From positions 1 to 10,446 of the forward strand of contig WRKS01000010.1 of assembly GCA_009778015.1 (NCBI GenBank): a stretch of 10,446 bases of DNA, given 5' to 3'. The notes beneath the pieces were generated by a model. The model was not told the origin of the DNA. It made no database searches and worked only from the letters and a program-made list of their open reading frames with translations. The position numbers and the translations under genes were made by a program. Position 1 is the stretch's first letter. Each line of letters begins with the position of its first letter. Source of the stretch: Candidatus Saccharimonadota bacterium (GTDB taxonomy: Bacteria > Patescibacteriota > Saccharimonadia > Saccharimonadales > Saccharimonadaceae). This document shows positions 3,083-3,277 of the stretch, piece by piece.

Positions 3083-3123
3083 CTAAGTTTTCTTAGGCGG
3101 TTTTCTTTTTCAAAAGAAAACCG
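3083..3123 (+). repeat. Two further leader hairpins upstream of tRNA-Cys
   Basis: CTAAG-TTTT-CTTAG (3083-3096) is a perfect 5-bp hairpin. It is followed by a perfect 12-bp inverted repeat, arms 3098-3109 and 3112-3123, with only TC at the centre. The second ends 7 nt before the first base of the tRNA. With the 3044-3078 hairpin they make three consecutive structures in the predicted leader. The pyrimidine-rich arm (TTTTCTTTTT) resembles that of the hairpin at 3278-3300 on the other side of the tRNA. Confidence 0.6.
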
Positions 3124-3130
3124 AAGGCAT

Positions 3131-3204
3131 GGTGCGTGGCTGGGGTAGTTACAGAGCGGTCTGCAAAACCGTGTAGATGGGTGCAATTCCCATACGCACC
3201 TCCA
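3131..3204 (+). tRNA. trnC: tRNA-Cys (anticodon GCA), atypical core
   Basis: It folds as a full cloverleaf. Acceptor GGTGCGT/ACGCACC (7 bp) is perfect, D-stem CTG/CAG is 3 bp with a 9-nt loop, anticodon stem GCGGT/ACCGT carries loop CTGCAAA, the variable loop is GTAG, and T-stem ATGGG/CCCAT is followed by U73 and an encoded CCA. Known cysteine recognition features (GCA anticodon, U73, G15:G48) are present, so cysteine charging is likely. The tertiary core is odd: position 8 is G (normally U), 14 is G (normally A), 18 is A (normally G), and the T-loop is TGCAATT with G55 instead of U55. Both partners of U8-A14 and of G18-Psi55 are therefore changed, while all stems stay intact. GUGC in place of GUPsiC is also reported for staphylococcal cell-wall (non-translational) tRNA-Gly. 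Confidence 0.9.
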
Positions 3205-3225
3205 ACATTAATAAATCAACATGCG

Positions 3226-3258
3226 AAAAACAGCCAAGATTCATTCTTGGCTGTTTTT
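3226..3258. terminator. Bidirectional intrinsic terminator
   Basis: A perfect 14-bp inverted repeat (arms 3226-3239 and 3245-3258) with a 5-nt loop. The GC core ACAGCC/GGCTGT is flanked by A5 and T5, so each strand ends in a T-run. It lies 22 nt after the tRNA on the plus strand and about 50 nt past the stop of the convergent DUF916-like gene, and so serves both. Confidence 0.9.
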
Positions 3259-3277
3259 CTTATCTGGTTTCTTTGCC

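Follow-up and report, generated by a model that had tools for sequence, protein, structure and literature searches.

The tRNA-Cys gene of a Candidatus Saccharimonadota bacterium, whose genome is very small, was found to carry A18 and G55 in place of G18 and U55, and the same matched exchange recurred in the tRNA-Cys of other Patescibacteria. The gene lies in the window, by which we mean the whole stretch of 10,446 nucleotides analyzed (contig WRKS01000010.1 of assembly GCA_009778015.1). We are confident that it encodes the sole translational tRNA-Cys of its cell, with an elbow of D-loop and T-loop that, judged from the sequence, would be held by different but matching tertiary contacts. On a broader scale, it is probable that A18.G55 represents a second tRNA elbow code, UGNRA-like and free of Psi55. 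In Patescibacteria, and likewise on viral contigs and in a few other bacteria, this code would repeatedly swap with G18.Psi55 in tRNA-Cys (sometimes in tRNA-Phe and tRNA-Leu), and it would stand beside swaps at 54:58, at 8:14 and at G19-C56 of tRNA-Gly(GCC). The matched swaps at 18:55, 54:58, 8:14 and 19:56 suggest that elbow pairs are evolvable as pairs, and the elbow-reading machinery of such cells probably accepts several forms. The accessible text of reviews on the subject presents U8-A14, G18-Psi55 and G19-C56 as near-universal (PMC7912444, PMC9023262, PMC7609411, PMC4810234).

ARAGORN placed a tRNA-Cys(GCA) gene with an encoded CCA end exactly at positions 3131-3204 of the forward strand of the window. 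The score against the Rfam model RF00005 was 41.1 bits at a cut-off of 29. The gene was absent from faster searches, and a fast Rfam scan of the window gave no tRNA. Thus, tRNAs with swapped elbows can escape detection. For the following, the letters were assigned to what we take to be their standard tRNA positions, with a D-loop that lacks position 17 and a variable loop that lacks position 47. The letters then read G8 (3138), G14 (3144), A18 (3147) and G19 (3148), the anticodon GCA (3163-3165), the T-loop U54-G55-C56-A57-A58-U59-U60 (3182-3188), the discriminator U73 (3201) and CCA (3202-3204), all on the forward strand. The preliminary description had called the stems perfect. The cloverleaf stems are indeed present, but the D stem consists of three Watson-Crick pairs and G13.A22, and 27:43 is G.U, so that this wording was slightly too strong. 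G13.A22 was found in all 69 tRNA-Cys of one set of relatives. The single-sequence minimum-energy fold obtained with ViennaRNA was not the cloverleaf.

A terminator-like hairpin with a U-rich 3' arm follows 20 bases past the gene (3225-3259, forward strand; −23.5 kcal/mol, z −8.25), and a consensus terminator scan gave nothing at 3225-3259. Directly upstream of the gene lies an AT-rich hairpin (3098-3123; −12.8 kcal/mol, z −3.78). At the edge of the window an open reading frame on the reverse strand (1-369) matches PF18451, the CdiA C-terminal domain family.

The letters agreed with the preliminary description in that U8, A14, G18 and U55 are all replaced and that GCA, U73, G15:G48 and the encoded CCA are kept. 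The window tRNA-Cys thus resembles canonical bacterial tRNA-Cys in its cloverleaf, anticodon, discriminator, CCA end, G15:G48 and G19:C56, but has G8:G14 and A18:G55 instead of U8-A14 and G18-U55. From their positions, G14 is the presumed partner of G8, and A18 that of G55. The letters for G19-C56 and U54-A58 are present as in the canonical core, and the corresponding contacts are predicted to form. G15:G48 also occurs in E. coli tRNA-Cys, and the accessible part of the same source gives 3:70 of bacterial tRNA-Cys as C3-G70, whereas the window gene has U-A at this place (PMC9976931).

The coupling of positions 18 and 55 was followed in the tRNA-Cys of 169 Patescibacteria genomes from 78 families, 101 of them in the class of the window and 68 outside. 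Nine of 100 relatives had no Cys-level match (G016, G018, G021, G027, G045, G057, G062, G068 and G084), and seven of these nine are less than 90% complete. A search of the phylum with a model built on the order of the window gave a match in 263 of 286 genomes. The 68 rows outside the class were taken from the top matches listed, so the 17 of them with A18:G55 do not give an unbiased rate. In the whole set, 18:55 was A:G in 69 and G:U in 100 tRNA-Cys, and the mixed states A18:U55 and G18:G55 were found in 0 of 169. A:G occurred in 40 and G:U in 48 of the 78 families, ten of which contained both states. Compensated core evolution, one of the readings offered in the preliminary description, is supported by this strict matching. 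The lineage-wide oddity that had also been proposed was found at two depths: the alignment of relatives showed the four bases together to be common to the genus of the window, to which G8:G14 is limited, and A18:G55 to occur across the phylum.

For a second reading, a DNA pattern was used that contains A18 and is blind to the T-loop. It matched at least 108 genome contigs, and ARAGORN read a tRNA-Cys in 107 of the 108 listed; the remaining one (L231) ends at the contig edge. Among these listed matches, G55 was present in 105 of the 107 tRNA-Cys picked by A18 alone, a count not fully independent of that from the 169 genomes since contigs and genomes overlap (e.g. L266 and G226:C3). The tRNA-Cys of a Bacillota contig (L302) has A18 with U55 and A56 and imperfect stems. 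Of the 105 listed contigs with A18 and G55, 74 bear labels that we take to denote Patescibacteria lineages, 26 are unlabelled and five belong to other phyla, namely Caldifarciminota (WOR-3; three), Elusimicrobiota (one) and Kiritimatiellota (one). The Kiritimatiellota contig is perhaps misbinned, since its tRNA is identical to that of an unlabelled contig (L221). Fifteen viral loci were examined as well. One of them (L361) yielded no tRNA-Cys, and all 14 readable A18 tRNA-Cys had G55; they comprise 8 distinct sequences, 7 of the 14 being identical. These identical genes (L360, L363-L368) have C1, A18:G55 and A54:U58 and lie in stretches with 3 to 20 tRNA genes each.

Could the coupling merely reflect inheritance from few ancestors, or a transferred tRNA gene, and not repeated compensation? 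We regard this as unlikely. A tree built from the remaining tRNA columns without 18 and 55 (159 rows of equal length) required at least 16 changes of the 18:55 pair. This tree is short and weakly supported, and only 6 of the 16 independent pairs lie on supported branches; in all 6, positions 18 and 55 change together. Two genera (g8 and g36) hold both states. With 12 and 19 of 71 positions different between their two forms, replacement by a divergent gene may have occurred there; the copies on viral contigs are also compatible with transfer. On the other hand, the ten families with both states argue for repeated exchange, as do the nearest rows across states: two sequences (G041 and G049) differ from a third (G034) only at 18, 55 and the compensated stem pair 6:67. 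Moreover, A18:G55 is also present in three tRNA-Phe and one tRNA-Leu, and even few ancestors would still leave 18 and 55 matched.

Position 15:48 was considered as a cause of A18:G55. G15:G48 coincided with A18:G55 in 38 and with G18:U55 in 14 tRNA-Cys, and G15:C48 with G18:U55 in 77 and with A18:G55 in 29. Because the sequences share ancestry and the association is not a tight one, this explanation was not adopted.

Matched exchanges were also observed at other tertiary pairs of the 169 tRNA-Cys. Position 8:14 was U:A in 165 and G:G in 4, which are precisely the genomes of the genus of the window (4 of 4). The pair is matched in all four, but with its confinement to one genus it may go back to a single event. 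The letters of the window gene recur in G002. In G001 and G003 the four bases are shared as well, although the background differs, and the stems co-vary among the genus members. Position 54:58 was U:A in 154, A:U in 14 and G:G in one tRNA-Cys; all 15 deviating genes carry A18:G55 and A60. For 19:56, G:C was found in 168 cases and A:U in one.

The other tRNAs read in two controls had A18:G55 less often than tRNA-Cys did. Both controls omit tRNAs whose acceptor and T stems failed to register and lean on tRNA-Leu. In the first control, 0 of 123 distinct tRNAs other than tRNA-Cys and tRNA-Gly, 70 of them tRNA-Leu, were off the canonical letters (GG in the D-loop, TTCNA in the T-loop, U8 and A14). 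The second control comprised 118 tRNAs beside the A18-pattern genes, with the D-loop checked only for GG and the T-loop only for TTCNA. It contained the three tRNA-Phe and the one tRNA-Leu with A18:G55 mentioned above. A tRNA-Phe on a Nealsonbacteria contig (L268) combines A18:G55 with C54/C58.

The tRNA-Gly(GCC) of the order of the window had U:A (28) or A:U (2) at 19:56 instead of G19:C56 in the 30 genes read, which were the top-scoring ones when 60 genomes were searched (loci including L331-L359). In the first control, 15 of 21 distinct tRNA-Gly(GCC) were off the canonical letters. G19:C56 was kept in tRNA-Gly(GCC) of loci beyond the class, where seen. The tRNA-Gly(GCC) of the source genome is located at L005:1501-1577. 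In its tRNA-Gly(CCC) (L024:1501-1575) G18:C55 replaces G18:U55, and G18:C55 was also observed in one tRNA-Leu, one tRNA-Gly and one tRNA-Val (L272, L317, L322).

The T-loop or lonepair-triloop design is known from rRNA as well as from riboswitches. A T-loop admits a base between its fourth and fifth positions; G18 takes this place in tRNA and, in addition, forms a pair with Psi55 at position 2 (PMC4810234, accessible text). In other RNAs the loop may be UGNRA. An outside A is then commonly contacted by the G of the loop, and a composite GNRA turn results (PMC2258182, accessible text). The window tRNA-Cys corresponds to this arrangement letter for letter, with UGCAA at 54-58, the first five letters of its T-loop, and A18 as the outside A. 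For the A18 elbow we propose the general T-loop/lonepair-triloop design of riboswitches in its UGNRA form. A18 would be inserted as the outside A between loop positions 4 and 5 and be taken by G55 at position 2. G55-C56-R57-A18 would then form a composite GNRA-like turn in which G55.A18 resembles the pair that closes a GNRA loop; both the G55.A18 contact and the composite geometry are predicted from the letters. G19:C56 would still cap the elbow, and G8.G14 would keep a contact resembling that of U8 and A14. The exchange would be compensatory evolution within normal function. The proposed elbow differs from the UGNRA lonepair triloop of riboswitches in that it is part of a tRNA T-loop, which canonically is UUCRA and receives G18. 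U54 and A58 are kept in 54 of the 69 A18:G55 rows; the other 15 need a variant of the model because their 54:58 is A:U or G:G and the loop is not UGNRA. The purine at position 57 gains the model no favour, since it is found in all 169 rows including the 100 with G:U.

The source assembly comprises 542 kb in 87 contigs and is 72% complete. No second tRNA-Cys was found in this genome, a result which at 72% completeness cannot alone exclude one. The tRNA-Cys model was also read in relatives, where the best 150 candidates were scored per genome. A single Cys-level match was obtained for every genome of the genus (G000-G003), including G001 (98% complete) and G003 (97%). In all 20 near-complete A18 genomes, i.e. 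these two and 18 more, the A18 gene was the sole tRNA-Cys found, and thus the second, canonical tRNA-Cys called for in the preliminary description did not come to light there. The next-best matches inspected (about 50 bits) were other tRNAs, e.g. a tRNA-Trp in G000. Of 100 relatives, 89 had a cysteinyl-tRNA synthetase (CysRS) that scored above the cut-off of its family. Full-length matches just under the cut-off were obtained for G001 and G003 (331 and 334 versus 340 bits), a partial one for G000 and only a weak match for G002 (63% complete). The CysRS loci of the genus, all below the cut-off, are located on G001:C12, G003:C3 and G000:C53, and their low scores possibly reflect co-evolution with the altered tRNA core. 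Cysteine is present in proteins encoded in the window. The sole tRNA-Cys in near-complete genomes, the CysRS in the genus and the cysteine in window proteins together indicate that the window tRNA-Cys most likely serves translation, and charging by CysRS and carriage by EF-Tu are predicted.

The preliminary description had also considered a Cys-tRNA used outside translation and drawn a parallel to staphylococcal tRNA-Gly, which is reported to have GUGC in its T-loop. Such a tRNA would serve a non-ribosomal job, e.g. for the cell wall or a peptide ligase, and would evade EF-Tu. The window tRNA-Cys does share the GUGC letters and, in addition, A49-U65, one of the two weak EF-Tu pairs of the staphylococcal molecules (PMC4052509, accessible text). 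However, the non-proteinogenic staphylococcal tRNA-Gly have UU or CU in place of G18-G19 and stand among five isoacceptors (PMC4052509, accessible text), whereas the window gene has A18-G19 and no extra isoacceptor was found beside it. It further keeps G51-C63 and G19:C56, and A18 has its match in G55. The parallel noted earlier is confined to the GUGC letters. Close relatives show both 18:55 states, and the single match in each genome of the genus and the 20 near-complete A18 genomes likewise speak against a job outside translation, which we consider very improbable.

G55 cannot be pseudouridylated, and consequently the window tRNA-Cys does without Psi55. A loss of the pseudouridine synthase TruB could have relaxed the constraint on position 55 and allowed it to drift. 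TruB was found in 90 of 100 relatives, including G000, G001 and G003. The ten relatives without a TruB match include seven A18 genomes (7 of 50 A18 versus 3 of 41 G18 relatives), as such a loss would predict, but the corresponding proportions with TruB, 43 of 50 and 38 of 41, differ within chance (Fisher p 0.50). All 17 near-complete A18 genomes common to this check and the tRNA-Cys count contain TruB, and U55 is kept in the other tRNAs of the first control. Furthermore, drift would not hold 18 and 55 matched. There is accordingly little to recommend this explanation, to which we assign a very low probability. As TruB is present in most A18 relatives, their other tRNAs probably carry Psi55. 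The A18:G55 tRNA-Cys are thus natural tRNAs without Psi55 in cells mostly retaining TruB.

A decaying gene or sequencing errors, for which only the 41 bits against the 53-71 bits of the 25 other tRNA genes found in the source genome could be cited, are hardly credible in view of the four bases shared by all four genus members with compensated stem changes, of A18:G55 in 69 of 169 genomes and of near-complete genomes without another tRNA-Cys. Assembly error in particular, which had been named as a possible source of the four bases, is excluded by their recurrence in G001, G002 and G003, in the first and last with co-varying stems. The window tRNA-Cys is a real, compensated and very probably functional gene that is odd to tRNA specialists without being a novel type of molecule.

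A search of the open-access literature, with subscription journals outside its scope, yielded no description of A18:G55 in tRNA. Steinberg's selections of elbow variants may hold related pairs. The nearest published pattern found is that of eukaryotic tRNA-Ala, in which A54/A58 and R15/A48 occur and 15/48 and 54/58 change together, i.e. tertiary pairs co-change in one amino-acid family (PMC7566577, accessible text). Both cases are amino-acid- and lineage-specific changes of tertiary pairs in working tRNAs, but the accessible part of that source does not name 18:55 or 19:56 as changed. Natural matched swaps reveal which elbow contacts are truly paired. They also make it testable how much the letters of the elbow, as against its shape, matter to RNase P, EF-Tu, CysRS and the ribosome.

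Some tRNA-Cys genes of the comparison showed further peculiarities. In one genome (L097, G094:C1:413000-415200) a partial second copy corresponding to the 3' half adjoins the intact tRNA-Cys. About 31 bases lie between its G34 and C35, and it lacks most of the 5' half; this fragment gave no Rfam match and was left out of the counts. The tRNA-Cys of L086 (G035) has A73 in place of the cysteine discriminator U73. Two members of one family (L117 and L118) possess a tRNA-Cys with a longer D-loop and a longer variable loop in combination with G18:U55.
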